Below, piece by piece: positions 1 to 10,713 of a DNA stretch of 10,713 nt (the first letter of the stretch is position 1; the number at the start of each line of letters is the position of its first letter). Made by a program: the position numbers and the translations under genes. The notes beneath the pieces were generated by a model. That model saw only the letters and a list, made by a program, of their open reading frames with translations, ran no database searches and was not told the DNA's origin. Source of the DNA: Lentisphaeria bacterium (GTDB lineage: Bacteria; Verrucomicrobiota; Lentisphaeria; Oligosphaerales; Oligosphaeraceae); the NCBI GenBank assembly GCA_016287975.1, contig JAEEXV010000057.1, positions 1 through 10,713 on the forward strand, written 5' to 3'.

Positions 1-10
1 GGGGGCGGGG

Positions 11-375
11 GGCGTCCGCCGCACGACGGCGGCGGCCCGGCACCACGGAGGAGGGGGCAGGGGGCGGGCGGCGCGAAACCGGCGGGGCGGGGGGACAGGC
101 GGGGGAAATGGGCCTGGCGCGGGGGCGGCTTCCGCCGCAAATGCGGCGGCACGGCACCACGGAGGATGGTGCATGGGGCAGGCGGCGCGAAAACAACGGG
201 GATGGCGCACGGGCGGGGGAAATGGGGCCAGGCGCGGGAACGGCTTCCGCCGCAAGAATGCGGCGGCACGGCACCGCGGAGGATGGTGCATGGGGCGGGC
301 GGCGCGAAAACAGCGGGGATGGCGCACGGGCGGGGGAAATGAGCCTGGCGCGGGGGGGCTTCCGCCGCAGCGGCG
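11..375. repeat. Tandem 115/116-bp direct repeat, three full copies plus a partial fourth, each with a GC hairpin
   Basis: Copies begin at 11, 127, 242 and 357, giving periods of 116, 115 and 115 bp; the last copy is cut off next to the stop codon of the ATPase gene at 381. Shared landmarks in each full copy are a gcttccgccgc-type start, a cggcaccacggagga-type block, ggcggcgcgaaaa and gggcgggggaaatg. Every copy carries an inverted repeat: stems 132-139/142-149 (loop of 2), 247-254/259-266 (loop of 4), 16-21/27-32 and 362-366/372-376. The stems are kept while the loop length changes. Open frames through this stretch are low-complexity Gly/Arg sequence, and I do not consider them genes. The array may continue to the left of the window. 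It could be an intergenic mosaic repeat or serve as a transcription stop for the minus-strand cluster, although there is no U-tract. Confidence 0.85.
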
Positions 376-380
376 GGGGG

Positions 381-1679
381 TTAGATTTCCAGTTCGTCGG
401 GGCGGTCGGTCGGGGCGGGGGCGAGGAAGTCCTGGGATTTCAGGAGGTCGGCGGTGGCGAGGGCGGGGTTCTGGGCGAGGATGTCGAGGAGCTGGATGAA
501 GTCGCGGATGACCTCGCGGGGGGTGATGTGGGTGTCGGCGCCGATGCGGTCGTATTCGAAGCGGATGAAGGCGATGAGGTCCTGCTGGGCGAGGCGGGGG
601 GTGTATCCGTAGAGCCCCGCGTGGATGGCGGTGAGTTTTTCGACGAGTACGAGCATCTCCTCGTTGGTGAGGGGGGCGAGGCGGATGACGGGGGCGAGCA
701 GGTCGCGGGCGCCTGCGGCCTGGGCGAAGCGGCCGTCCTGGAGGCGTGAGCGGAGGGCCTCGTAGGAGAAGATGCCGCGGCGGGGATCCTCGACGCACTG
801 TGGGGTGCCGCCCATGAGGATGCCGAGATGGGAGGCCTTGCCCTGGAGGGCGTCGTTGTACATCGCGAGGAGTTTCTCGTAGTTGGCCTGGCGCGCGATG
901 GAGTTGGGGATCTTGTAGATGTTGACGAGTTCGTCGATCAGGATGTAGAGGCCGCTGTAGCCTGCGCGCCTGAGGAACGCGGCGAAGAGCTTGAGGTAGT
1001 CGTACCAGTCGTCGTCGGTGATGACGATGCCCACGCCGAGGTCGGCCTTGGCGTCGCGGCGGGTCGGGTATTCGGCGCGGAACCACTTGACGACCTTGGC
1101 GCGGGTGTCGGGATCGTCGTCGATGGTCGCCTGGAAATAGCGCACGAGCAGGGAGGCGAACTCGAAGCCGTGCACGAGTTCCTGGACAGCGCCGATGGCC
1201 TCGTAGATGCGCTGGCGGACGGCGGCGGCGAAGTCCGCCGTGCCAGGCTGGACGGCGGCGGCGACTTCGGTCTGGATGCCGCTGATCCAGCGGTCGAGGA
1301 TGAGCTGGACGGCGCCGCCGTCGGGGCGGGTGCGCGTGGACATGTTGCGGATGAGTTCGCGGTAGGTCGCGAGCCCCTGTCCGCGGGTGCCGTGGAGCAG
1401 GCGCTCGGGGGAGAGGTCGGCGTCCACGACGACGAAGTTGCGGTCCATGACATAGTTGCGGATGGTCTGGAGCAGGAAGCTCTTGCCGCTGCCATAGCGC
1501 CCGACGATGAAGCGGAAGGCGGCGCCGCCCTCGGAGATGACGCCGACATCGTGGAGCAGCGCGTCGATTTCGGCGGCGCGGCCGACGGTGATGTAGGGCA
1601 GCCCGATGCGGGGGACGACGCCGCCCTTGAGGGAGTTCAGGATGGCGGTGGCGATGCGTCTGGGGACGGCGGTGGTCAT
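381..1679 (-). CDS. P-loop ATPase of the BrxC/BrxD (DUF2791) type
   Basis: The 432-residue protein has a Walker A motif at residues 60-67 (GRYGSGKS) and a Walker B at 245-250 (YILIDE). A conserved segment at about 287-312 (LMGGTP, then DPRRGIFSYEALRSRL) and HITPREVIRDF at 384-394 are hallmarks of the BREX-type ATP-binding family (DUF2791). Relatives occur in BREX type 2 loci (BrxD) and beside TerB_N/TerB_C proteins, often with a superfamily 2 helicase. They are thought to load or regulate DNA-acting machinery in the cytoplasm. The start ATG overlaps the stop of the TerB gene by four bases (ATGA), which indicates translational coupling. The reading frame stays open far upstream only because of the repeat in the neighbouring gene. 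The usual helicase partner is not in the window. The family is confident; the role is inferred. Confidence 0.87.
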   Translation of the reverse strand: MTTAVPRRIATAILNSLKGGVVPRIGLPYITVGRAAEIDALLHDVGVISEGGAAFRFIVGRYGSGKSFLLQTIRNYVMDRNFVVVDADLSPERLLHGTRGQGLATYRELIRNMSTRTRPDGGAVQLILDRWISGIQTEVAAAVQPGTADFAAAVRQRIYEAIGAVQELVHGFEFASLLVRYFQATIDDDPDTRAKVVKWFRAEYPTRRDAKADLGVGIVITDDDWYDYLKLFAAFLRRAGYSGLYILIDELVNIYKIPNSIARQANYEKLLAMYNDALQGKASHLGILMGGTPQCVEDPRRGIFSYEALRSRLQDGRFAQAAGARDLLAPVIRLAPLTNEEMLVLVEKLTAIHAGLYGYTPRLAQQDLIAFIRFEYDRIGADTHITPREVIRDFIQLLDILAQNPALATADLLKSQDFLAPAPTDRPDELEI

Positions 1680-3343
1680 GCGAGCATTCCTTGGAGTTCG
1701 TCGCGGTAGTCTTCGGGGACGACGGGGCGGTCGTTGTCGTCGTAGATGAGGATGGTGTCGCCGAAGCGGTCGAAGAGGCGGTCGTTGATGGAATCGACGA
1801 GCATGGAGAGCGGATGCCCCGTCTCGCGCAGTGCCTCGTCGTATGGCGCGCCCGCGAGCAGGCAGCGAAGGAAGGCGCGCTCGGCGGGGGAGAGGGCGAA
1901 ATCGCCAACGGCGGCTTGCGCCGCTGGCGCAGGACAGACGACGGAAGACCCGGAAGATCCGGAAACTCCGGAAGATCCGGAAACTCCGGAAACTCCGGAA
2001 GACCCGGAAACTCCGGAAGACCCGGAAACTCCGGAAGACCCGGAAACTCCGGAAGATCCGGAAACTCCGGAAGATCCGGAAACTCCGGAAGATCCGGAAA
2101 CTCCGGAAGATCCGGAAACTCCGGAAGATCCGGAAACTCCGGAAACTCCGGAAACTCCGGAAACTCCGGAAACTCCAGAAGACCCGGAAGATCCGGAAAT
2201 TTCGGCGGCATCGGGGCTTTCGGTGGGGGCGGTTTCTTCTTCGACGACGAGTTTTTCCTGGGTGCGCTGGGCGTCGTCGCGGATGGTCTGGAGGCGGGAG
2301 AGGTCGAAGGAGACGGGGGGGCGGGCGAAGGTTTCGTGGAGTGTGTCTTCGAGGAGGCGGCGGAAATCGGCGGGGAGTTCGGGGGTGCGGAGGGCGGAGC
2401 GGCCGTCGAGGCGTTCTCGGAGGCGGGCGTCGAGTGCCTTGAGGAGGAGGGCGAGGAGGCGGTTCCTGCCTCGGAGGAGGAGTTCGTGGCGGATCCACTG
2501 TCCGTCGTCTCTTGCGCAGTAATGCCAGGGGGTGAAGGAGTAGAGGCGGTTTGGGAGATGGGGTGGCTCGTAGAAGACGGTGCCGCTGAAGATTTGCATG
2601 ATGCACAGGGTTTCCTCGCCGTAGAAGTTTTCGAGCATGATGCGGCTTTGGTTTTTCAGGAAGCGCGCGATGGCGCGGAGAAGTGTTGCGACGGCGGCGA
2701 GGTATTCGGCAGGATGTCGGCGGCAGCCTGGACTGCGGCCCAGGTCGTGCCTGCTGGCGGTGACGGCGGCATGGAAGAGTTCCTCAGGCGGGCGATTCTC
2801 GGGGGCCAGTAGCGCTGGAAGCACGTCGTTTTCCCGACGTGGCGGGAGGGTGTCGGCGAGTGCGTGCGGCAGGTCGTAGCAGGCGAGGTAGTCGTATTGC
2901 CAGTGCACGAGCGTTTCGCGGAAGTCGGGGGCGAGCCAGGGGAGGGCGCGGAGGCGTTCCAGTTGGCGGAAGCCGTCCTCGGGGGTGCCTCCAGAGACGC
3001 CGTTCACGAGTTCGGTGGCGAGGAGCCGCGCGAAGGCGGCTGGGGCGCGTGGGGCTTCGCCGTCGCGGAAACGGGTTCGCCAGTCGAAGTATCCACGGAG
3101 CTGGTCGAGGGAGAGGGTCTCGTAGGTCGGGCGGGGCTGGTCGCACTGGCCTGCCCAGGCGTATTCCTCGCGCCAGTTCTCCATCAGTTTCGCCTGGACA
3201 TGGAAGATTTCCGCGACCGCGTTGGTCGTATGGCGAAAGGCGCCGCCCAGCCGCCGCATCTTCCGATAGATGGGGGGCGTGACCGCGAAGCCAGAAGGAG
3301 GAGGCGGCAGCGGCACATCTTCGTATGTGCATTCGATGGGCAT
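1676..3343 (-). CDS. TerB_N/TerB_C domain protein with a Val/Ser-Ser-Gly repeat linker
   Basis: The 555-residue protein has a TerB_N-like region at about residues 38-160, with the motif LDQLRGYFDWRTRFRDG (79-95), the stretch FARLLATELVNG and EDGFRQLERL. A TerB_C-like tail lies at about 485-555 (LSPAERAFLRCLL, DSINDRLFDRFGDTIL, PEDYRDEL). Between them, residues 383-467 are almost entirely VSG and SSG tripeptides, preceded by an acidic segment. In known operons the TerB_N/TerB_C family pairs with the DUF2791 ATPase, as here, in Ter-type stress or defence islands; its biochemical role is unclear. I chose the start at 3343 because homology begins soon after it, and the longer open frame up to 3715 would overlap the deacetylase-like gene and is Ser/Thr-rich shadow sequence. 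No Shine-Dalgarno is evident; a -10-like TATATT sits exactly six bases before the ATG. A C7 run near residue 339 is a possible slippage site. Confidence 0.82.
   Translation of the reverse strand: MPIECTYEDVPLPPPPSGFAVTPPIYRKMRRLGGAFRHTTNAVAEIFHVQAKLMENWREEYAWAGQCDQPRPTYETLSLDQLRGYFDWRTRFRDGEAPRAPAAFARLLATELVNGVSGGTPEDGFRQLERLRALPWLAPDFRETLVHWQYDYLACYDLPHALADTLPPRRENDVLPALLAPENRPPEELFHAAVTASRHDLGRSPGCRRHPAEYLAAVATLLRAIARFLKNQSRIMLENFYGEETLCIMQIFSGTVFYEPPHLPNRLYSFTPWHYCARDDGQWIRHELLLRGRNRLLALLLKALDARLRERLDGRSALRTPELPADFRRLLEDTLHETFARPPVSFDLSRLQTIRDDAQRTQEKLVVEEETAPTESPDAAEISGSSGSSGVSGVSGVSGVSGVSGSSGVSGSSGVSGSSGVSGSSGVSGSSGVSGSSGVSGSSGVSGSSGVSGVSGSSGVSGSSGSSVVCPAPAAQAAVGDFALSPAERAFLRCLLAGAPYDEALRETGHPLSMLVDSINDRLFDRFGDTILIYDDNDRPVVPEDYRDELQGMLA
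1944..2198. repeat. Coding minisatellite of 9-bp units (about 28 units) in the TerB gene
   Basis: Read on the minus strand, the units are GGA-GTT-TCC (Gly-Val-Ser) and GGR-TCT-TCC (Gly-Ser-Ser), for much of the tract alternating to form an 18-bp period. About 255 bp are affected, nearly without point differences except A/G in the Gly codon and a single degenerate unit near 2176. Because the unit is a multiple of three, gain or loss of units keeps the frame. All six frames stay open here, which creates many false open frames. The near identity suggests recent expansion by slippage. Confidence 0.95.
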
Positions 3344-3368
3344 GCCGCCAATATAATGCGGGGGGGGG
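3344..3368 (-). promoter_or_regulatory. Possible leaderless promoter and G9/C9 tract before the TerB gene
   Basis: On the minus strand a TATATT box (3350-3355) is followed by six bases, GGCGGC, and then the ATG at 3343. This spacing would put the transcription start on or next to the A of the ATG. A run of nine C (G9 on the plus strand, 3360-3368) lies just upstream, inside the region that would separate -10 and -35. No TTGACA-like -35 is seen at 16-18 bp; the nearest resemblance (TTGTCC, 3380-3385) is 24 bp away. A GC hairpin lies at about 3391-3412, just after the stop of the preceding gene, without a U-tract. Confidence 0.4.
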
Positions 3369-3410
3369 AGTTCGGCGCGGGACAACCTGGCCGCCCGCGG
3401 CTGGCGGCGG

Positions 3411-4241
3411 CTATTGGAATTGCGGGGGGCGGTTTCGGAAGAAGGGGCCGCGGCGCATGAGATGGCGGAGTCCGTCGAAGTCGTAGTTGCCAGACCACCA
3501 GGTCGGGTGCTGGAGGAACATGACGACGTCGCCGAGTTCGCAGGCGCGGAGGGCGGCGACGAATTCGTCGCCGCCGAGACAGGTGGATTCGCCGAAATAG
3601 TGGAAGCGGTCGCCGTAGGTCTGCTCCATGAGTTCCATGAAGGAGTAGAGTTCGCCGTATGGGGGGAGGCCCGCCTGCTGGAGGAGGTGCTGGTCGAAGT
3701 GTCCTGCCGCGTCATGGAAGAGGGCGGCGGAGTCGATGCCTGACTTGTAGACGCCGTGTCCGAAGGCGAGGGTGACCTTCGGGTAGTATTGGCGCAGGAG
3801 GGCGAGGTTTTTCCTAAAGGATTCCAGCGCGGCGGCCTGGTCGCCTGCGGTGATGACGAGATCCTCGTGCTGATACTCGAATTCGTGTCCGAGTTCGAGG
3901 ATGCGGTCGAGGTCGCGCCGCCATTCGTCGTCCCAGATGCAGACCATGCGCAGATTGAAGCTGGAGCGGAAGCCGTAGCGGTGTTCGACCTCGGCCATGC
4001 GTCGGGCGAGGAAGTTGTCGTTGGGGCGCTCCACGTCGTGCATCCAGATCACGCGGACGTGGTCGGGCGAGACGAGATTCCCTTCCTGCCAGAGCCGATA
4101 GCCCTCGGCCTCCGTGACGGGGAGGTATCTGGGATTGGCCATCTCCTCGCAGATCTTGACGTATTCGGCCTCGTTGAGGTCTTGCTTCACATGCGCGTAG
4201 TGCTCGAACGCCAAATCCATCGGGACATACATCTTGGTCAT
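3411..4241 (-). CDS. Polysaccharide-deacetylase-like (NodB-fold) protein
   Basis: The 276-residue protein has no signal peptide. It carries motifs typical of the divergent polysaccharide deacetylase-like group: HDVE at residues 68-71 (metal-binding Asp/His style), followed by RRMAEVEHRYGFRSSFNLR, GHEFEYQHE at 118-126, a GHG at 161-163, and QHPTWW at 244-249 near the C-terminus. Known members with this HDV(D/E)...GHE...HP layout remove acyl groups from sugars or act on related substrates, and many are uncharacterised. The start at 4241 has AGGAG eleven bases upstream; ATGs at codons 4 and 8 are alternatives. It lies between the macrodomain gene (91 bp upstream) and the TerB gene (67 bp downstream), so a cytosolic small-molecule or nucleotide-sugar substrate is more likely than cell wall. 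The fold is likely, the substrate unknown. Confidence 0.65.
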   Translation of the reverse strand: MTKMYVPMDLAFEHYAHVKQDLNEAEYVKICEEMANPRYLPVTEAEGYRLWQEGNLVSPDHVRVIWMHDVERPNDNFLARRMAEVEHRYGFRSSFNLRMVCIWDDEWRRDLDRILELGHEFEYQHEDLVITAGDQAAALESFRKNLALLRQYYPKVTLAFGHGVYKSGIDSAALFHDAAGHFDQHLLQQAGLPPYGELYSFMELMEQTYGDRFHYFGESTCLGGDEFVAALRACELGDVVMFLQHPTWWSGNYDFDGLRHLMRRGPFFRNRPPQFQ

Positions 4242-4332
4242 CGTCGGAAACGCTCCTGATGCAAGTGTGGGGGGGCGTCCGCGCCGTCGGCGTGGACGGT
4301 CTCACAATATAGTCGAATTTTGCGGACGCGGG
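4242..4332 (-). promoter_or_regulatory. Intergenic hairpins and a possible internal promoter before the deacetylase-like gene
   Basis: This 91-bp gap contains a long inverted repeat, 4276-4285 against 4289-4298 with a 3-base loop (one wobble on the plus strand, one A-C mismatch on the minus transcript). A second inverted pair, GCGTCCGC/GCGGACGC, spans 4275-4282 and 4322-4329. Between them, on the minus strand, is TATATT (4306-4311), the same box seen before other genes in this window. No matching -35 is visible. The Shine-Dalgarno AGGAG for the downstream gene lies at about 4253-4257. The structure could attenuate readthrough from the upstream ADP-ribose genes or mark a second transcription unit. 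Confidence 0.4.
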
Positions 4333-5160
4333 CTATCCCAGGATTCTCTGGAAGGCCTCGTAGTTTTTGGTCTCGTGTCCAGGCATGCAGAACACGGCGA
4401 ACTCCACGCAGCGGAAGTCGTAGCGGAACTCAGGCAGGACGCGGGCGGCGGCGGTGGCGACCAGCTCGGGCGGATTGTGGAAGGCGCCGCAGCCGAAGGC
4501 GCCGAGGATGGCGATGTCGACTTTGGCGTAGCGCATGACGGTGAGGATTCTGCGCCAGCGCCGTTCAAGCACCCCCTGCAGTGCATACGCGGGGATTGTC
4601 TTTTCGCCGAAGTTTTCGCCGAGGGTGTCGTGCTCCAGATGCGGCGCGGCACAGGTGACCACGCTGAGAGTTTGCCATTCCCGAGGTGGGAGCAGCTGTA
4701 TCGGCTCCGTCACATCTGACTTGAAGACGACCACTCCTGACGTCAGAATGCAGTCGTCCCGATTTAGCGGCGAGTAGTTTGTCCGATGCGGCAGATAGTA
4801 TCTGTTCCAGCATTCTTCCGTCTTCAGGGCGGGATAGAGCGTCGAGCAGCGGCAGAGCGCCTCCTCCTGCGAGTGGGCGCCGTTTACCACGCCGCCGCCC
4901 GGGGTGGTGGAGGAGGCGAAATTCAGCACCGCGACCGTCTGCCCTTTGTATGCGGCGGCAGCCTCGAAGGTGCGCTTGGGCGAGACGATGACGCGCGCGG
5001 GGGCGATGAAGCGCGGAGACGGGAACGTCGGCAGTTCCTCCTCCTCCAGGAAGATGCGTTGTGTCGCGAGTGATATGTGCAGAGCTTGCGCCAGCGCCGC
5101 GTCCTTGCGGCAGCGTTGCAGGGTGTCCTCGAAGGCCAGGCGATTTTCAAAGTGCGACAT
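4333..5160 (-). CDS. Macrodomain protein of the bacterial-type PARG family (TIGR02452-like)
   Basis: The 275-residue protein carries the signature of poly(ADP-ribose) glycohydrolase-like macrodomains: VAVLNFA at residues 77-82, the GGG loop at 88-90 and QEE at 98-100, the latter including the catalytic glutamate, followed by ALCRCSTLY. The second phosphate-binding loop is ILGAFGCGAFHNPPE at 218-232. Its length matches the TIGR02452 family. Such enzymes hydrolyse ADP-ribose from modified macromolecules in the cytoplasm; activity is expected because the catalytic residues are intact. The start ATG at 5160 lies 12 bp after the ADP-ribosylglycohydrolase stop, which indicates co-transcription; only a weak GGGGAAA ribosome site is visible. 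Having two different classes of ADP-ribose eraser side by side points to reversal of ADP-ribosylation on more than one linkage type. Confidence 0.88.
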   Translation of the reverse strand: MSHFENRLAFEDTLQRCRKDAALAQALHISLATQRIFLEEEELPTFPSPRFIAPARVIVSPKRTFEAAAAYKGQTVAVLNFASSTTPGGGVVNGAHSQEEALCRCSTLYPALKTEECWNRYYLPHRTNYSPLNRDDCILTSGVVVFKSDVTEPIQLLPPREWQTLSVVTCAAPHLEHDTLGENFGEKTIPAYALQGVLERRWRRILTVMRYAKVDIAILGAFGCGAFHNPPELVATAAARVLPEFRYDFRCVEFAVFCMPGHETKNYEAFQRILG

Positions 5161-5172
5161 GATGCATTTCCC

Positions 5173-6024
5173 CTATTTGCGATTTCGGATTTCGTCGATG
5201 GTTTTGAGGAAGTCGGTGATTCTGGCGTCGATGGTTTGCCAGTCCTTGACGTCGTGGATCCATTCCTGCGGGATGGCGTCGCATCCGAAGTATGCGCCTG
5301 CGAGTTGTCCGTAGACGGCGCCGATGGAATCGGAGTCTCCGCCGAGATTGACGGCGGCGAGCATTCCCTCGCGGAAGGTCGGGTGGTTGCAGAAGGCCCA
5401 GGTGGCGGCTTCGACGGTGTCGAACGCCCAGCCGCTGTTGGGGGCGCTTTCGCGGGTATGGGTGGAGTGGAGGCGGCTGGCATCGCCGTCGATGAGCGCG
5501 AGGCAGGTCAGGCGCAGTTCGGCAAGCAGTCGGCGGATGGCGCGGGAGTTGTGGGTGAGGTCGCTGATTTCGGCGATGATGTCGGGGTTGTTGCAGGCTT
5601 CGGCGAGGATGAAGCCCGGGGCGAACCGCATGATGCTGCCGTTGCCCTGGGTGGAATCGTCGCCGTTCTGGAGGCGTCCCTGGAGGATTCCGCGCATGGC
5701 GCGGTGGGTCGCGCCGCCGATGTCGAAGGCGCGTTTCCAACTGGAGAGGAAGCCCGTCTGGTACCACCGCAGGAAGTTCCAGGCGATGTCAGGGAGGTCG
5801 TAGCGGCGGAGGCGGATGACGCTTTCCATGATGCAGAAGGCCATGGAACTGTCATCGGTCCAATAGCCTTTGGGGAGGTCCATGCCGTAGACGCCGACGG
5901 CGGGCTCCATGGCGGTGATTTCGCGGTGTCCGTCTTTCGAGGTGAACTGGATTGGCGAACCCATGCAGTCACCGACGACGAGTCCCCAGAGCATCCCCCG
6001 CAATTTGTCTTGATCAAAGTTCAT
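5173..6024 (-). CDS. ADP-ribosylglycohydrolase (DraG-type)
   Basis: The 283-residue protein has all motifs of the ADP-ribosyl-[dinitrogen reductase] hydrolase fold: GLVVGDCMGSP at residues 14-24, the metal-binding WTDDS at 55-59, QGNGSIMRFAP at 126-136, and NLGGDSDSIGAVYGQLAGAYFG at 226-247, which supplies further metal ligands (D230, D232). This predicts an active two-magnesium enzyme that removes ADP-ribose from arginine or another acceptor, or cleaves a related metabolite. The preferred start at 6024 has GGAG ten bases upstream; an ATG three codons earlier (6033) sits too close to that site but cannot be excluded. The gene overlaps the 3' end of the radical SAM-Nudix gene by 11 bp, indicating translational coupling. 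Confidence 0.9.
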   Translation of the reverse strand: MNFDQDKLRGMLWGLVVGDCMGSPIQFTSKDGHREITAMEPAVGVYGMDLPKGYWTDDSSMAFCIMESVIRLRRYDLPDIAWNFLRWYQTGFLSSWKRAFDIGGATHRAMRGILQGRLQNGDDSTQGNGSIMRFAPGFILAEACNNPDIIAEISDLTHNSRAIRRLLAELRLTCLALIDGDASRLHSTHTRESAPNSGWAFDTVEAATWAFCNHPTFREGMLAAVNLGGDSDSIGAVYGQLAGAYFGCDAIPQEWIHDVKDWQTIDARITDFLKTIDEIRNRK

Positions 6025-8194
6025 TGTTGTCATTCTCCTGTTGCTTGGTGTAGATGATGGCGGGGCGGTGGCCCGCGCCGCTGGTTGTGCGTTTGGTGGG
6101 CGAGAGGAAGGGCAGGATCTTGCGCCTGAAGTTGGCGGCGAGCAGGGGCCTGCCCAGGAGCAGTTCATGCACCGTCTGGAGTTCGGCGATGGTGAACTCG
6201 GCGGGCAGGAACGCGAAGGCGAGGCGGCGCAGGCCGTCGCCTGCCTGCAGCGCCTTGAGGGCGGTCGCGATGATGACGGCATGGTCGAAGGCCAGTTCCG
6301 ACGAAAGCGTTCCGAAGGCGAACTGCCCGAAGCGGTTGCGGGTCAGGCGCAGCGACGCCTCCAGGCGCACCTGGGCGTGGGTGAAGACCAGCGTGAGGCG
6401 GTCGTTTTCCTCGTGGAAGTCCAGGTCAAACCACTGGGCGTCCATCGCGTCGTCGCCAGCGAGGAGCGAGCGGTCGGCGGTGCCGACGACGGCGAGGAAT
6501 GCGTTCGAGAGGATCCATCCGCGGGGGTCTCGTCCTGGCTCGCTGAAGCATCCCAGTGGATGGAGCGCCTCGACGCTCAGTCCCGCTTCCTCGAAGAGTT
6601 CGCGCTGGGCGCAGTGCCCGACGGCCTCCCCGTGGCGCAGGAATCCGCCAGGCAGCGCCCATTTTCCCATGAACGGGTGTTCGGCGCGGCGGATCAGCAG
6701 CACGGACAGATGGGGGCGGCCAGGGCGTCGGTAACTGTCCGCCGTCTCATGGCGGATGGTCATCGCCACCACGTCCGTCGCCACCGACGGGCGGTCGAAG
6801 GCCTCGATGGAGTAGGTTGCCAGGAAGTTTCGCTCGCCTTCGCTTTCGGGGGCGCGGCGGCGTTCGTAGAGGCGCAACAGTTCCTGCTTCGAGCGTTCGG
6901 AGTAGAACAGCGGGATCACGCCGTTGATGAAGTCGGCGCCGCGCGGGGTCAGCATCAGTTTGCCGTCGTGGAACTCCATCAGATTTCGATCGAGCACGAA
7001 ACGGACTTCGTCGGGATAGACCTCCTGGAGGTCGCGTCCGAAGCGCCTGCGGAAGGCTTGGAGGTCCACGAAGCCGAAGTAGAAGCAGACGGCCAGCATT
7101 TTGGCCATGCACTCCTCCTGAGGGAGCGCGTAGACGTCCTGCAGCGGGAAGATGCCTGCCATGACCTTGTCGCGGTATTGGTCCAGGCGCTTGGTCGCCG
7201 CGCCCTCGTTGTAGGATAGGTATCCCAGGCCGAAACTCTGTGCGCCGAGGCCGAGTCCCAGATAGGGCATTCCCTCGATGACCCGATGGGTCAGGTAGTC
7301 GCTGGTGCCCCAGTCTCCTTCGAGGCGGCTGAAGGTGTTCTTGCCGATGTTCGCATGGTAGCCGTTTTCCGTCAGGATCCGATAGGCCAGTCGGTACTGC
7401 CGCATCGCCTTGTAGAGCGACACGCCGCCTGCCTCGGCCTCCAGTTTCGTGCCCTTGTAGCGGTTTCGGTAGAGAGTGATCTGCGTCGGCTTCAGGGCGA
7501 CCGCATACCGCAGCGTCGTCTCCAGTTCCTGGTCGGACTGCTTCAGGAAGCCGTACATCAGATCCACATTGAACTGCTCGAAGCCCGCCTGGCGGATATG
7601 GCGCACCGCCTTCTCGTAGATGTGCGGCTCGCCCTCCCGCCCCAGTTCCGCCAGCAGATGCGGTGCCACCGTCTGGATGCCCATGCTGATTCGGCGGAAG
7701 CCCAGTTCACGCACCGCCCGCAGTTTCTCTGGATCCCGCGCCGCGATCACAGGCGTCGTCTCGATGCTCCACATCACCGCGGGATCCACCGCAAACAGCG
7801 CCCTCGCACGCGCCACGATCCGCGCCAACTCCCCTGTCGACAACTTCAGGGGCGTCCCGCCGCCGATGTCGAAGCCCATCACCCGTTTGCCGCGCAGCAG
7901 AGGCGCGTACAACTCCATCTCGCGCAGCAGCAGATCCACATACTCCGCCTCCGTCTCCTCGCCCGCGCCCTCCAGGACCGTATACTCGCAGAAACGGCAG
8001 CGCGACTGGCAGAACGGAATGTGCACATACAAGCAGTACGATTCCACCCGCCCCCACTCCGCTTCCAGCTGCCGCTTCACCCCCTCCGCGCCAGATACGC
8101 GATACGCCCCGAACGACCCTGGGGTCAGCGGATAGGCCGTGTTCGCGTAATGGTGGTACAACAAACCCGTGTCGTAAACTTTACTCGCTTCCAT
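6014..8194 (-). CDS. Radical SAM (HemW-like) / Nudix / NrtR-like winged-helix fusion protein
   Basis: The 726-residue protein begins with a HemW/HemN-like radical SAM domain: cysteines 62, 66 and 69 form the CxxxCxxC cluster site inside YVHIPFCQSRCRFCEY, and FDIGGGTP lies at 108-115. A HemN-like C-terminal region ends near residue 430. A Nudix domain follows (about 470-600) with a complete Nudix box, G517-x5-E523-x7-R531-E532-x2-E535-E536-x-G538. The tail (about 655-716) resembles the NrtR winged helix: LPAEFTIAELQTVHELLLG, then NFRRKIL and a GHRPAIIY strand. NrtR proteins sense ADP-ribose and repress NAD genes; active Nudix enzymes cleave ADP-ribose. A direct fusion to a radical SAM enzyme is unusual. 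The start has AAAGGAG (8200-8206) five bases upstream. It is the first gene of the cluster, so it may control its own promoter. Heme function is unlikely from context. Confidence 0.88.
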   Translation of the reverse strand: MEASKVYDTGLLYHHYANTAYPLTPGSFGAYRVSGAEGVKRQLEAEWGRVESYCLYVHIPFCQSRCRFCEYTVLEGAGEETEAEYVDLLLREMELYAPLLRGKRVMGFDIGGGTPLKLSTGELARIVARARALFAVDPAVMWSIETTPVIAARDPEKLRAVRELGFRRISMGIQTVAPHLLAELGREGEPHIYEKAVRHIRQAGFEQFNVDLMYGFLKQSDQELETTLRYAVALKPTQITLYRNRYKGTKLEAEAGGVSLYKAMRQYRLAYRILTENGYHANIGKNTFSRLEGDWGTSDYLTHRVIEGMPYLGLGLGAQSFGLGYLSYNEGAATKRLDQYRDKVMAGIFPLQDVYALPQEECMAKMLAVCFYFGFVDLQAFRRRFGRDLQEVYPDEVRFVLDRNLMEFHDGKLMLTPRGADFINGVIPLFYSERSKQELLRLYERRRAPESEGERNFLATYSIEAFDRPSVATDVVAMTIRHETADSYRRPGRPHLSVLLIRRAEHPFMGKWALPGGFLRHGEAVGHCAQRELFEEAGLSVEALHPLGCFSEPGRDPRGWILSNAFLAVVGTADRSLLAGDDAMDAQWFDLDFHEENDRLTLVFTHAQVRLEASLRLTRNRFGQFAFGTLSSELAFDHAVIIATALKALQAGDGLRRLAFAFLPAEFTIAELQTVHELLLGRPLLAANFRRKILPFLSPTKRTTSGAGHRPAIIYTKQQENDNNEL

Positions 8195-8217
8195 GAAAGC
8201 TCCTTTCGCTTAAAATG

Positions 8218-8260
8218 AACAATGTGTTATTAACAATGTGATATTAATATAATGCACATT
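8218..8260. promoter_or_regulatory. Candidate operator with repeated AATGTG half-sites and a palindrome
   Basis: AATGTG occurs at 8221-8226 and 8235-8240, within two 14-bp direct repeats (8218-8231 and 8232-8245) differing at one base. Its inverse CACATT is at 8255-8260. Between the inverted pair lies the perfect palindrome ATATTAATAT (8241-8250). The sites overlap the promoter's -10, spacer and start region, as expected for repression. The winged-helix tail of the adjacent protein is the obvious candidate binder; this is inference. Confidence 0.55.
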
Positions 8261-8273
8261 TTGGGGATGTCAA
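8246..8273 (-). promoter_or_regulatory. Sigma-70-like promoter for the radical SAM-Nudix gene
   Basis: On the minus strand a perfect TTGACA (8268-8273) is separated by 16 bp from TATATT (8246-8251). This is the best promoter match in the window. Transcription would start near 8239 and give a leader of about 45 bases with a strong ribosome site before the ATG at 8194. Confidence 0.7.
8248..8253 (+). promoter_or_regulatory. Plus-strand -10 box (TATAAT) overlapping the divergent promoter
   Basis: A perfect TATAAT lies on the plus strand and overlaps the minus-strand TATATT by four bases, forming a possible bidirectional promoter. The -35 region 17 bp upstream (TGTTAT, 8225-8230) is a poor match. 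It could drive the plus-strand reading frames from 8267 on. Confidence 0.35.
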
Positions 8274-8344
8274 GCGGGAGGGGCGAGAAATTCGGGGCCG
8301 ACCTGGACGAGATCAAGGAGAGGCGCAAGCAGATCTGGAAATAG
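8267..8344 (+). CDS. Short reading frame (25 aa), possible 5' part of a frameshifted gene
   Basis: This ATG-started frame encodes 25 residues rich in charged amino acids (GEKFGADLDEIKERRKQIWK at the end). Its codons end almost always in G or C, like the metallopeptidase gene downstream, which hints that it is or was coding. It has no Shine-Dalgarno and stops at two consecutive TAG codons. Joined to the next frame (8345-8556) by a single frame change, it would form a helical, charged protein of about 95 residues. It may instead be a leader peptide or chance. Confidence 0.25.
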   Translation: MSSGRGEKFGADLDEIKERRKQIWK

Positions 8345-8373
8345 TAGGGGCCAGGTTCAGGGGCGTCAGGGGC

Positions 8374-8556
8374 GTGAAGTCCGACGTTGGCAGGGAGCTT
8401 GCAAAGGCCGAGGACGCGGGGGCCTTTGTCAAGGAGGCCGAGGAAAAACAGGAAGGCGACGGCACCAAGGAGCAGATAGGCAGGCTTGCCGTGGCCATTC
8501 CCAGGAAGAGCCTGGAAGTCGAAAGCACCTACCAGCCAGTGTCGGTGACCCTGTAG
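8374..8556 (+). CDS. Small hypothetical protein upstream of the metallopeptidase
   Basis: The frame encodes 60 residues from a GTG start. It contains a charged, probably helical segment (ELAKAEDAGAFVKEAEEKQ) and a Ser/Val-rich tail. I do not recognise a family. The frame is also open upstream of the GTG, without an ATG, back past the start of the 25-residue frame, so the true 5' end is uncertain. Its TAG stop is separated by two bases from the ATG of the metallopeptidase gene, which suggests translational coupling. Codon choice (AGG for Arg, AAG for Lys) matches that gene. An antisense frame (8230-8571) also exists but lacks support. Confidence 0.45.
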   Translation: MKSDVGRELAKAEDAGAFVKEAEEKQEGDGTKEQIGRLAVAIPRKSLEVESTYQPVSVTL

Positions 8557-8558
8557 CC

Positions 8559-9608
8559 ATGTCGGATACACAGACCGTAGTCAAGCCTCCCAAGCATCCG
8601 GACCAGGCTGGATCCGCAGCCACTGCGCTTGGCAGCATATCCAACGCCACCCAGCAGTTCATCGCCGACGTCCTTACCGAGCCGCCTTCCAGGGGCTACC
8701 GCCTGGACGACTACGACGCCATCCGCGACAACCTGTTCGACAACGTCAAGACCGCCGTGACCAGGAGGTTTCCGCTCAGGAACAGCCGCTACGCGCTGAC
8801 CGTGGAGGACCTGGACTACGACGACCCCGCCGAGATCGGGGTGGACGAGGAGAAGCGCCTGCTGCTGGAGAACAAGTCCGGCGTCAGGAGGCTGCGCGTG
8901 GCCACGGGCATCGCCAACTGGTTCCGCGCCCGCGCGTTCAAGAAGAAGCTCCAGGCCGCGAAAAACTCGAACCTGCAGGAGCTGAGGCGACTGATCCGAC
9001 TCAGCAACAGCGCCAAGGTCCCAGTCTATATCCAGAGCGGAGGGACGCCGCTGGGAAACGCCTATTACGCGGATTTCGGGGTTCCAACGGTGGACTGGGG
9101 GCCTGGCATCACCTGGAAGGACGCGCTAACCGGACGCAGCGTCAGGATGCCCAAGGACAAGGCGGTGTTCATTGGCAAGGGCTACAACAAGCTCCCTGTG
9201 ATCGCGCACGAGCTGGGCCACGCCAGCGACCTCAACGAGAACACCTGGTCCACCAAGGCGGGTGCGGCGCTGGACGTCGTACAGGGGCTGTCGCTTGCCA
9301 CGGCGATGCTGGCGGCGCACCCCGACGCCGTTGACAAGGGCGTGTCTCCGCTGGTCGGCATAATCGGCGGCGCGGGGCTGCTGGCAGCCTCGACGCTGTC
9401 CTCGATGCTCAGCAAGCGCGATGAGCGCGCCGCCTCCGACCGCGCCATCCAGAGCCTGCGCCAGCTCCAGAAGGAGAAGCAGCTGAACAAGAGCCTGGAG
9501 CTGCTGGTGTCGGCCTACAAGACCTACGACCCGCTTTCCATCGGCACCCCAGACTTCGGCTCCAACAAATATGCGAAGGCCGCCCTGCCGCCGCTCAAGG
9601 CGAAATGA
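8559..9608 (+). CDS. Membrane-embedded HExxH zinc metallopeptidase with YugP-like layout
   Basis: The 349-residue protein has the zinc motif HELGH at 217-221 inside VIAHELGHASD. Two Gly/Ala-rich hydrophobic stretches follow, about 236-256 and 262-283, then DERAASDRA at 288-296. The pattern E-x-x-A-S-x-R-A, with E289 as the likely third zinc ligand, matches the arrangement in YugP-type (Peptidase M48-related) membrane peptidases; overall similarity is otherwise limited to this region. The first 150 residues are charged and unrecognised, without a signal peptide. The protein may sit at the inner membrane with its active site facing the cytoplasm. AGG and AAG codons are frequent, unlike the minus-strand cluster, pointing to a separate origin, perhaps a phage or other mobile element. 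It follows the small frame by two bases, with no clear Shine-Dalgarno. Confidence 0.7.
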   Translation: MSDTQTVVKPPKHPDQAGSAATALGSISNATQQFIADVLTEPPSRGYRLDDYDAIRDNLFDNVKTAVTRRFPLRNSRYALTVEDLDYDDPAEIGVDEEKRLLLENKSGVRRLRVATGIANWFRARAFKKKLQAAKNSNLQELRRLIRLSNSAKVPVYIQSGGTPLGNAYYADFGVPTVDWGPGITWKDALTGRSVRMPKDKAVFIGKGYNKLPVIAHELGHASDLNENTWSTKAGAALDVVQGLSLATAMLAAHPDAVDKGVSPLVGIIGGAGLLAASTLSSMLSKRDERAASDRAIQSLRQLQKEKQLNKSLELLVSAYKTYDPLSIGTPDFGSNKYAKAALPPLKAK

Positions 9609-9667
9609 TATACACCGGGGCTTTCTTTTACTCTGGATGTAAGATCCCCAGATCCGGTCGGTAGTGT

Positions 9668-9698
9668 TATATTGACGGGGGGAGACAGCCCAAGGAGG
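9668..9698 (+). promoter_or_regulatory. Possible promoter -10 and Shine-Dalgarno for the lipoprotein gene
   Basis: TATATT at 9668-9673 could be a -10 box; no -35 match is seen. AAGGAGG at 9692-9698 is a near-perfect ribosome site placed seven bases before the ATG at 9706, which decides the start over the ATG at 9700 (one base away). The preceding stretch 9609-9667 shows a small imperfect hairpin (9632-9638 against 9644-9652) without a T-run. Confidence 0.5.
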
Positions 9699-9705
9699 AA
9701 TGGAA

Positions 9706-10281
9706 ATGAGAACGGTGGGAATGATGTTGATGGCGCTGGCTACTGCACTGATGCTGTCGTCGTGCAGCACCGTGGTGGATCAGGCACTTGGAGACGATCC
9801 GCTGCTGGTGGTGAGGCAGGTAAGGGATATAAATGCGCAGAAGACGGAGGTGAGTGCGTTCGAGTTTGATATCTGTTGTACTGGCCCCAGACCTTCCGCT
9901 GCCAGTGCCGAAAATGATTTGAAGCGAAGTCTAGGCGATATAGTGTCTGTACTGTTTGCGCAGAGCCACGACGTCAATCGTTTTTCGGAGCTTTTGCTAG
10001 AGGAGATTGAAATTGCTGTAAATCTCAGTCTGAAGGAAGTGCCGCGGACCGTCGCGGGAGACACCGAGTGGATAAAAATGCATGAAAATACACTATGGCG
10101 AGGGGCCGTCAATGTTTATTATCATCTCATGTGGAGTGCTATCTGCGAGCGCTATCACAACTGGCCCGAAAAAAAGCCTGCTCGGTTTGATCTATGGCCA
10201 GATGTCGTGAAATCTGGAATCGAACAGGGGTGGAGTCAGCGAAAACAAGCACGGGCATGGCCACGTCCTTTCGATGACTGA
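9706..10281 (+). CDS. Small lipoprotein of unknown function
   Basis: The 191-residue protein starts with a classic lipoprotein signal peptide: MRTVG, a hydrophobic core (MMLMALATALML) and lipobox LSSC with C20 as the lipidated cysteine. Ser at +2 fits transfer to an outer membrane. The mature part has a pair of cysteines (near residue 57), an amphipathic mid-region (NRFSELLLEEIEIAVNLSL) and a Trp/Arg-rich C-terminus. I do not recognise a family. Base composition in the second half is clearly lower in GC than the neighbouring genes, and codons are less biased, which suggests a separate acquisition. It has its own ribosome site and possible promoter, and stands alone between the metallopeptidase and the transposase fragment. 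Confidence 0.7.
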   Translation: MRTVGMMLMALATALMLSSCSTVVDQALGDDPLLVVRQVRDINAQKTEVSAFEFDICCTGPRPSAASAENDLKRSLGDIVSVLFAQSHDVNRFSELLLEEIEIAVNLSLKEVPRTVAGDTEWIKMHENTLWRGAVNVYYHLMWSAICERYHNWPEKKPARFDLWPDVVKSGIEQGWSQRKQARAWPRPFDD

Positions 10282-10299: not shown

Positions 10300-10334
10300 A
10301 ACCTGCGTTGTTGTTTATAACAGAAACACAGGTT
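10300..10334. other. Imperfect stem-loop between lipoprotein gene and transposase fragment
   Basis: AACCTG (10300-10305) pairs with CAGGTT (10329-10334), and an inner stem TGTT-TAT-AACA lies at about 10312-10322, separated by unpaired bases. A short GGGGTGCCCC lies just before it (10283-10292). It may end transcription of the lipoprotein gene or mark an element border; neither is proven. Confidence 0.35.
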
Positions 10335-10340
10335 CAGATT

Positions 10341-10713
10341 ATGCGCTATAGAGACTTTAAATGTTTGAATTGTGAGGGGCATCTGCTCAAACAAGCAGAC
10401 GAGGCCCCGGCCTTCCAGAGACTGGACACCAACATCGGCAATAGAAAAGCCTACGGCGGAGCCGAGCAGCAGAAACCGACAGATATCACAGGTCAGCCTA
10501 TTCCTGCGCGGCCCATGGAAGAGGTGCTGGATGTCTACAAAAGACCCTACAGCCCGAAAAAACCCGTGGTGAGCATTGACGAGATGCCCAAGCAGCTCAT
10601 CCAGGAAAACCGCAGGGAATTCACTGATTCAAAGGGTGTTGTGCACTATGACTCCGAGTATGTCAGAAATGGGACGACAAATGTCTTCATGGCGGTCGAA
10701 CCCCTGGCGGGGA
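10341..10713 (+). CDS. IS630-type transposase, partial at the window edge, with a foreign N-terminus
   Basis: The frame is open from an ATG at 10341 to the end of the window (124 codons). From 10515 it matches the DDE domain of IS630-family transposases: MEEVLDVYKRPY, PVVSIDEMPKQL with the first catalytic Asp at 10578-10580, then YDSEYVRNGTTNVFMAVEPLAG. The normal N-terminal helix-turn-helix region is missing. The first 58 residues (CxxC pair, then FQRLDTNIGNRKAYGG and DITGQPIPARP) do not resemble it; only the short IPAR before the match may be a relic of the CIPAR-type linker. It therefore looks like a truncated or rearranged insertion sequence, possibly fused to part of another gene. The ribosome site is weak. 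The second and third acidic residues would lie beyond the window. Confidence 0.72.
   Translation, partial: MRYRDFKCLNCEGHLLKQADEAPAFQRLDTNIGNRKAYGGAEQQKPTDITGQPIPARPMEEVLDVYKRPYSPKKPVVSIDEMPKQLIQENRREFTDSKGVVHYDSEYVRNGTTNVFMAVEPLAG

Follow-up and report, generated by a model that had tools for sequence, protein, structure and literature searches.

Do six adjacent genes of a Lentisphaeria bacterium, which pair enzymes of ADP-ribose metabolism with a TerB-domain protein and a P-loop ATPase, act as one system, or do they merely lie side by side? The genes (G1 to G6) all lie on the minus strand with short gaps between them, at 381..8194 of the 10,713-nucleotide stretch analysed here, hereafter the window. 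The original prediction placed the six genes correctly, and all of them are real; it read them as a single defence or stress pathway in which an ADP-ribose-type signal controls, or is cleared by, the remainder of the island. The reading that we favour, and regard as rather likely, is that G1-G3, G4 and G5-G6 are three adjacent transcription units and not a single system.

A radical SAM-Nudix-winged helix fusion ahead of two predicted erasers

G1 (6014..8194, minus strand) encodes a radical SAM protein (HemN/STM4012-like) fused to a Nudix domain and an NrtR winged helix, with Pfam matches to Radical_SAM at 56-230, NUDIX at 495-592 and NrtR_WHD at 659-715. A CxxxCxxC motif (62-69) and a Nudix box (517) are present, and the key residues are invariant across 23 aligned sequences, G1 counted among them. 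All three domains occur in 115 of 120 homologues, among the matches listed, and judged by such sequence matches the fusion family is large. With HemN/HemW/STM4012-type proteins G1 shares the core, the CxxxCxxC motif and a HemN_C-like end, but unlike them it is fused to the Nudix-winged helix part, and it scores below the cut-off of each NCBIfam model among the matches listed (25 of 31). None of the literature searched, in which few subscription papers were covered, joins “radical SAM” and “NrtR”. A search of genome contigs with G1 returned only two distant loci, one on a Gracilibacteria contig that has stretches related to the radical SAM and Nudix parts, the other on a Lachnospiraceae contig with NrtR only. 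A full-length relative (E 1e-110) was found in 1/391 Clostridia genomes, where the frame stops before the winged helix and no other window gene, hence neither eraser, was detected within ~9 kb on either side; a family-level search around that genome matched 1/14, the genome itself.

The two following genes encode predicted erasers of ADP-ribose. G2 (5173..6024, minus strand) is an ADP-ribosylglycohydrolase of the ARH/DraG family (PF03747, 170 bits, Pfam 1.2e-49) with TDDS and GGDSDS motifs, which we take to be metal-binding, and its closest solved structure is 2cwc (150 bits). G3 (4333..5160, minus strand) belongs to the microbial PARG family TIGR02452 (134.9 bits, cut-off 50), macrodomain-type poly(ADP-ribose) glycohydrolases; it carries GGG-x7-QEE at 88, presumably the PARG signature, and matches the solved PARGs 5zde and 3sig. 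Domain models and intact catalytic motifs agree with the identities first proposed for G1, G2 and G3.

Together, G1-G3 probably form a separate, self-regulated operon with a predicted function in removing ADP-ribose tags from molecules, and G1 is its predicted ADP-ribose-type sensor and autoregulator. Repression, ligand and substrates are inferred as follows. The Nudix-winged-helix half of G1 would keep the G1 promoter repressed as long as levels of ADP-ribose, or of a related nucleotide, stay low. Once they rise, G2 and G3 would free modified macromolecules of their ADP-ribose, both mono- and poly-type; the released ADP-ribose could be hydrolysed by the intact Nudix domain of G1, while the radical SAM half would contribute Fe-S/SAM chemistry. 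As the fusion heads a two-eraser operon with a candidate operator, ligand, operator and erasing activity are all directly testable.

An anti-phage role has been predicted for operons of ADP-ribose erasers under Nudix regulation (PMC9503650, section 3.8). The ARG-centred systems described there have a Nudix-HTH or WYL transcription factor in >42% of cases and a phosphatase coupled to ARG, an optional feature, in just over 55% (PMC9503650). The window shares with them the ADP-ribosylglycohydrolase (PF03747, G2), a Nudix-winged-helix regulator (NUDIX and NrtR_WHD in G1) and a further ADP-ribose-acting enzyme, and, as in these systems, there is no ADP-ribosyltransferase or sirtuin among the 8 window proteins scanned. 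It differs from them in that no phosphatase family or chaperone was matched among the window proteins, Nudix-type models aside, in its second eraser, a TIGR02452 PARG, and in the fusion of its regulator to a radical SAM domain, a term absent from the main text of PMC9503650. By analogy, G1-G3 may work like the ARG-centred Nudix/WYL systems, a likeness from which we claim no membership.

Promoter-like sites and the limits of the proposed units

The best of three sites found by a consensus promoter scan (1.6 expected in the window) is a sigma-70-like promoter of G1 (8246..8273, minus strand; TTGACA-16-TATATT, 11/12 consensus positions). Over its -10 element lies a candidate operator (8235..8260), the perfect palindrome AATGTG-N14-CACATT, which, with up to one mismatch allowed, has one match in the window against 0.01 expected; 2/200 shuffles reach one match, for a pattern picked after the site had been seen. 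Possible further half-sites (8218..8245) consist of two direct copies of AACAATGTGWTATT (TRF score 53); both are exact, and at 3 mismatches 18/200 shuffles give at least two matches as well. The palindrome occurs at the G1 promoter only, which counts for three units and against joint control.

The hexamer TATATT occurs four times in the window, where 0.34 are expected and 0/200 shuffles reach four, and all four copies are sense-oriented in the gaps before G1, G4, G5 and the gene at 9700. Those at 4306..4311 and 3350..3355 (both minus strand) are candidate -10 elements for G4 and for G5-G6, with best -35 matches of 3/6 and 2/6, respectively; the latter, used as a -10, would imply a near-leaderless G5-G6 mRNA. 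A single six-gene operon is disfavoured because such promoter-like hexamers lie in the gaps and because adjacency is missing from the neighbourhoods described below. Several observations count against three units, namely that the consensus scan missed the G4 and G5 sites with their weak -35 hexamers, that the gaps between the units (91 and 67 bp) are short enough for read-through, and that codon use is alike in G2, G3, G4 and G6 (correlations 0.71-0.90), which is compatible with long residence together.

G4 (3411..4241, minus strand), the putative second unit, has the CE4/NodB fold anticipated for it and belongs to a small unnamed family; its HD motif (H68-D69) does not vary across 15 sequences, and it is predicted to be sugar-deacetylase-like. 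Foldseek matches to G4 (best 13 rows: pyruvate carboxylase and other folds) were rejected as chance, with TM by query length ≤0.30.

A Shango-type pair at the end of the cluster

G5 (1676..3343, minus strand) has the TerB_N and TerB_C domains proposed for it, both confirmed by Pfam, and is a homologue of SngA (PADLOC SngA, 166 bits, E 5.7e-49) with a collagen-like insert. It overlaps by 4 nt with G6 (381..1679, minus strand), a P-loop ATPase with Walker A GRYGSGKS and Walker B YILIDE. The label “BREX-type” misfiled this gene: G6 shares the Pfam family BrxC_BrxD with BREX BrxD and reaches only 144.3 bits against the BrxD equivalog cut-off of 350, PADLOC scores SngB far better (606.5 bits vs 143.5 for BrxD), and no other BREX match was found among the window proteins scanned. 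On these matches G5-G6 are homologues of SngA-SngB and not a BrxD-type module. Shango is a known anti-phage system composed of SngA-SngB-SngC (PMC10250203), and the window shares with it a TerB-like SngA followed by the SngB ATPase, the overlap, the order and the strand. It differs in the insert and in that no SngC helicase follows SngB within the remaining 380 bp. The insert, a GSSGVS-type stretch (1942..2198, minus strand; 14.3 copies of 18 bp by TRF; Pfam Collagen at 408-466), is missing from five aligned SngA relatives.

The distance from the stop of SngB to the opening of the SngC frame is -85 to +105 nt in 24/26 compared loci, and SngB is broken in the remaining two. In the window, the 380 bases between SngB and the edge are mostly a GC-rich 117-bp tandem repeat (7..370; 3.2 copies by TRF) where SngC would be expected, and five SngC queries found none in the six frames of the window (best E 0.56). 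We therefore claim no complete Shango here: SngA and SngB are present, SngC directly after SngB is not. G5-G6 would be the SngA-SngB part of a Shango-type system whose SngC has been lost, has moved or lies past the tandem repeat. Alternatively, and compatible with three units, the pair might be a non-functional remnant broken by repeat expansion or rearrangement, as the absent SngC, the repeat array at the break, the insert in SngA and the broken Shango copies at two other loci (L103 and L107) would suggest. We think this rather unlikely given that both frames are open, the Walker motifs and the 4-nt overlap are intact, and SngA can be aligned over its full length with the five relatives at 28-33% identity. 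Viral contigs yielded no relatives of the G1 family, SngB or the gene at 8559, and no exact match to a 42-base pattern taken from the 117-bp repeat. The right edge of the window holds an IS630-type transposase fragment.

Neighbourhoods of ADP-ribose and Shango genes in other genomes

Outside the window's own lineage the two halves were not adjacent: none of the 31 SngB loci opened has a detectable ADP-ribose gene, and none of the 37 ADP-ribose loci opened has a Shango gene. SngB matched 49/398 Bacillota genomes, of which 24 were opened and 25 weaker ones left out, and 7 of 691 plasmid records were opened. SngA-SngB-SngC stand in a row in 21/24 of these Bacillota loci (one, L103, with broken frames) and SngB-SngC, with SngA undetected, in the other three; all three genes are present in 7/7 plasmid regions. 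PARG and SngB do share genomes above chance (strong SngB in 6/12 PARG genomes vs 24/398; Fisher p 1.8e-5, with kinship ignored and both searches taken as the same 398-genome Bacillota sample), and five of these six genomes are similar in size (5.6-7.3 Mb) with near-equal SngB scores, so that shared ancestry is the likely cause of the excess. In the five genomes with both NrtR-NADAR-PARG and Shango, the two lie on different contigs or are separated by no less than 304 kb. Shared genomes and the range of lineages covered keep this from being a full refutation of the joint pathway. It is a useful negative result nonetheless, which leaves the joint ADP-ribose/Shango reading without support in the neighbourhoods reached. 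Of the defence pathway originally proposed, the defence context stands, given the SngA-SngB homologues and the anti-phage prediction for Nudix-regulated eraser operons (PMC9503650), with the defence role itself inferred; the joining of both halves is not supported.

Two versions of a joint system have to be weighed against this. In the first, a single composite system of this lineage, a phage ADP-ribosyltransferase would raise ADP-ribose, G1 would derepress the whole cluster, G2-G3 would erase the tags and SngA-SngB would attack phage DNA without SngC. The co-directional genes with short gaps, the window without SngC and the effector genes described beside eraser operons (PMC9503650, section 3.8) fit it, but with non-adjacent halves, promoter-like hexamers in both gaps and a palindrome at G1 only, we consider it quite unlikely. 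Highly improbable, in our view, is the more specific version for the window's lineage, in which the ADP-ribose-sensing radical SAM-Nudix repressor would control a joint anti-phage island, G2-G3 would erase phage-made tags and a two-gene Shango variant (collagen-armed SngA plus SngB, no SngC) would be the nucleic-acid effector. Under the three-unit reading, the units may instead have been collected together as defence-related genes pile up beside mobile elements.

Eraser clusters with an NrtR-type regulator were found elsewhere. Three-gene NrtR-NADAR-PARG clusters occur in 5/12 PARG genomes of the Bacillota sample (one Pfam-checked), and likewise a regulator leads a row ending in a TIGR02452-type PARG, but it is unfused and NADAR takes the middle place held in the window by the ADP-ribosylglycohydrolase. 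On the Prevotella plasmid pE2-28, Nudix-NrtR directly follows an ADP-ribosylglycohydrolase, with a G1-related radical SAM gene ~4 kb on. These clusters show that operons of this kind recur, and they come close to the eraser systems under Nudix regulation that PMC9503650 predicts. Against this, a pair exactly like G2-G3 was not found again (ARH beside PARG in 0/12 PARG genomes), and the one full-length G1 relative opened lacks both erasers nearby; 68 ARH-bearing plasmid records were matched, and of 26 PARG plasmid records the two opened (Butyrivibrio and Treponema) have no ARH or NrtR annotated nearby.

Within the three-unit reading, G1-G3 might also serve housekeeping, salvaging ADP-ribose from NAD turnover, which would leave defence to G5-G6 only. 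NrtR proteins regulate NAD metabolism; the G1 family is large, and Clostridia often have NrtR-like proteins with no ARH or PARG detected nearby (20 stretches from a 148-genome search, single-sequence phmmer). We hold this possible though doubtful, since the scan of the window proteins turned up no NAD biosynthesis gene, the substrates of PARG and ARH are conjugates of ADP-ribose, and one relative has a mobile setting, the Prevotella plasmid. Among the NrtR loci, L038 gave a marginal match to a SngC-like helicase (E 9e-4) with no SngA or SngB, and L053 carries NADAR ~2 kb away.

Two neighbouring halves

All six minus-strand genes of the original prediction were found, the gaps of 91 and 67 bp that it gave were correct, and its domain content agreed with a Pfam domain scan. 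Motifs that we take to be catalytic in their respective families are intact in G1, a radical SAM-Nudix-NrtR winged-helix fusion (6014-8194; a CxxxCxxC motif and a Nudix box of canonical form), in the ADP-ribosylglycohydrolase G2 (5173-6024; TDDS and GGDSDS), in the PARG G3 (4333-5160; GGG-x7-QEE) and in the ATPase G6 (381-1679; Walker A and Walker B). What found no support was the proposal that the ADP-ribose genes (G1-G3, unit 1) and the Shango genes (G5-G6) form a single pathway; four lines argue against it: TATATT hexamers, a palindrome confined to G1, gene neighbourhoods, and genomic distances.

The window contains four TATATT hexamers (0.34 expected), all of them sense-oriented in a gap ahead of a gene, namely G1, the CE4/NodB-fold gene G4 (3411-4241), G5 (1676-3343) and a plus-strand gene at 9700, and some hexamer common to all four gaps arose in only 5 of 5000 single-base shuffles of these gaps. 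At G1 it is part of a promoter-like site, TTGACA-16-TATATT, the best of three matches to the promoter consensus across the window (1.6 expected), and its -10 element is overlapped by a perfect palindrome, AATGTG-N14-CACATT, which is present in the window at G1 only (0.01 expected, an optimistic figure since the pattern was chosen after the site was seen). Two direct copies of AACAATGTGWTATT lie beside the palindrome, a pair that is not rare with mismatches allowed (18 of 200 shuffles). Against separate promoters count the weak -35 boxes at G4 and G5; both TATATT sites were missed by the consensus promoter scan, and the one at G5, 12 nt upstream of the start, would make a near-leaderless mRNA.

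A joint system is further opposed by the neighbourhoods of relatives: no ADP-ribose gene was detectable in 31 SngB loci and no Shango gene in 37 ADP-ribose loci (two of which, L110 and L111, overlap), using single-sequence profiles on stretches of ~4.5-20 kb, which distant relatives could escape. Likewise, no G4 relative was detectable in the 31 SngB loci, and an NrtR stretch from the smaller database (L038) gave a marginal SngC-like helicase match (9e-4). A profile search of 24 SngB genomes located PF03747 in 15 and PF10021 in six, with the nearest match on the same contig ~48 kb from SngB (G171). NrtR-NADAR-PARG clusters and Shango are both found in five genomes, never adjacent: 304 kb separates them in G363, 1.6 Mb in G513 and 1.7 Mb in G474, and in G214 and G252 they sit on separate contigs. 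PARG and SngB do share genomes above chance (6 of 12 PARG genomes) by a statistic that ignores kinship, and this co-occurrence probably stems from shared ancestry.

SngA and SngB homologues

G6 had been described as a BREX-type ATPase, an assignment contradicted by its scores (NCBIfam BrxD 144 against a cut-off of 350; PADLOC SngB 606 bits vs. BrxD 143). G5 matched SngA at 166 bits (PADLOC), and by these profile matches G5 and G6 are SngA and SngB homologues. Shango is described as a three-gene anti-phage system of a TerB-like protein, an ATPase and a helicase; in P. aeruginosa PAO1 it protected modestly on plates against many but not all phages, and cells in liquid culture were, in general, strongly protected (PMC10250203).

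The SngB model matched in 49 of the 398 Bacillota genomes sampled, strongly (>200 bits) in 24, and all 24 of these loci were opened: SngA-SngB-SngC stood in a row in 21, including L103 with its broken frames, and the remaining three held SngB-SngC with SngA undetected. The three genes were also in a row in 7/7 plasmid regions opened (from 691 matching plasmid records). Relative to the stop codon of SngB, the SngC frame began at -85 to +105 nt in 24 of 26 compared loci; the exceptions, L103 and L107, have broken SngB frames. In the window, the 380 bases downstream of SngB to the edge consist mostly of a GC-rich 117-bp tandem repeat (TRF; 7-370, 3.2 copies), from which a 42-base exact pattern had no match in viral_contigs, and five SngC queries against all window frames found none (best E 0.56). 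Because of these empty queries and the repeat after SngB, G5 and G6 are taken as SngA and SngB homologues, and no complete Shango is claimed.

The SngA of the window is unusual in carrying a 14-copy 18-bp repeat (TRF; 1942-2198, minus strand) that codes for ~86 collagen-like GSSGVS-type residues between a TQEKL-like stretch and the TerB_C end and is missing from all five aligned relatives. The 92% matches between copies suggest a recent slippage expansion. PHROG tail-fibre matches to G5, and most of its 120 listed database matches, were due to this low-complexity stretch and not to homology.

The ADP-ribose unit

At least 4097 of 7998 scored candidates matched G1, some of them not fusions; all three domains were present in 115 of the 120 matches listed. 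Among the sources named for these are Lentisphaeria, Oscillospiraceae, Clostridia and Planctomycetia. The closest named relative among the matches listed is a Lentisphaeria MAG (69%), with ten matches (69-80% identical) ranking higher, so the lineage of the window is probably Lentisphaeria. The sole full-length relative opened for its surroundings (G715) had no ADP-ribose eraser nearby, which counts against a tight bond. This relative, the one full-length match found in Clostridia, is ~2 kb away from a row of genes that closes with a large SMC-like ATPase, presumably resembling Wadjet JetABC (L111, 531-7337).

PARG was borne by 12 genomes of the Bacillota sample, all of whose contexts were examined: NrtR-NADAR-PARG formed a row in five (L126-L130; families confirmed with Pfam in L126), and an ADP-ribosylglycohydrolase adjoined PARG in none. 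On the Prevotella plasmid pE2-28 an ADP-ribosylglycohydrolase is directly followed by a Nudix-NrtR protein; DUF1810 genes accompany them, and ~4 kb on lies a radical SAM gene akin to the radical SAM half of G1. The whole cluster (3782-10233), which also has DUF6717 and includes two genes each of the DUF1810 and radical SAM types, is a possible ADP-ribose/radical SAM cassette. Judged by these clusters and this plasmid, a Nudix-winged-helix regulator next to ADP-ribose hydrolases recurs with variable partners. Systems built around an ADP-ribosylglycohydrolase and a Nudix or WYL repressor, in some cases along with Macro or NADAR, have been predicted as counter-measures to phage ADP-ribosylation (PMC9503650, section 3.8). 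G1-G3 would work like those, with a radical SAM fusion that is absent from that paper's main text.

If family membership is a guide to repression, ligand and substrates, G1 would most likely repress unit 1 as long as ADP-ribose has not risen. G2 and G3 would free ADP-ribose that is bound in conjugates, and the nucleotide so released would be cleared by the Nudix domain. SngA-SngB would work apart from unit 1, if still active at all.

Flanking genes

A 349-aa protein (8559-9608, plus strand) had no match in a PHROG search and carries a HELGH-type motif, presumably that of a metallopeptidase (Zn_peptidase_2 at 17 bits, under its cut-off). Further right, the lower-GC gene at 9700 (51% GC) adjoins a transposase-related fragment that runs off the window edge (10308-10712, plus strand), without a Pfam match and resembling annotated plasmid-borne IS630-family sequences at 45-55% identity over 49-61% of its length. 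The right edge thus appears to be that of a mobile element, and such edges are usual for defence genes.
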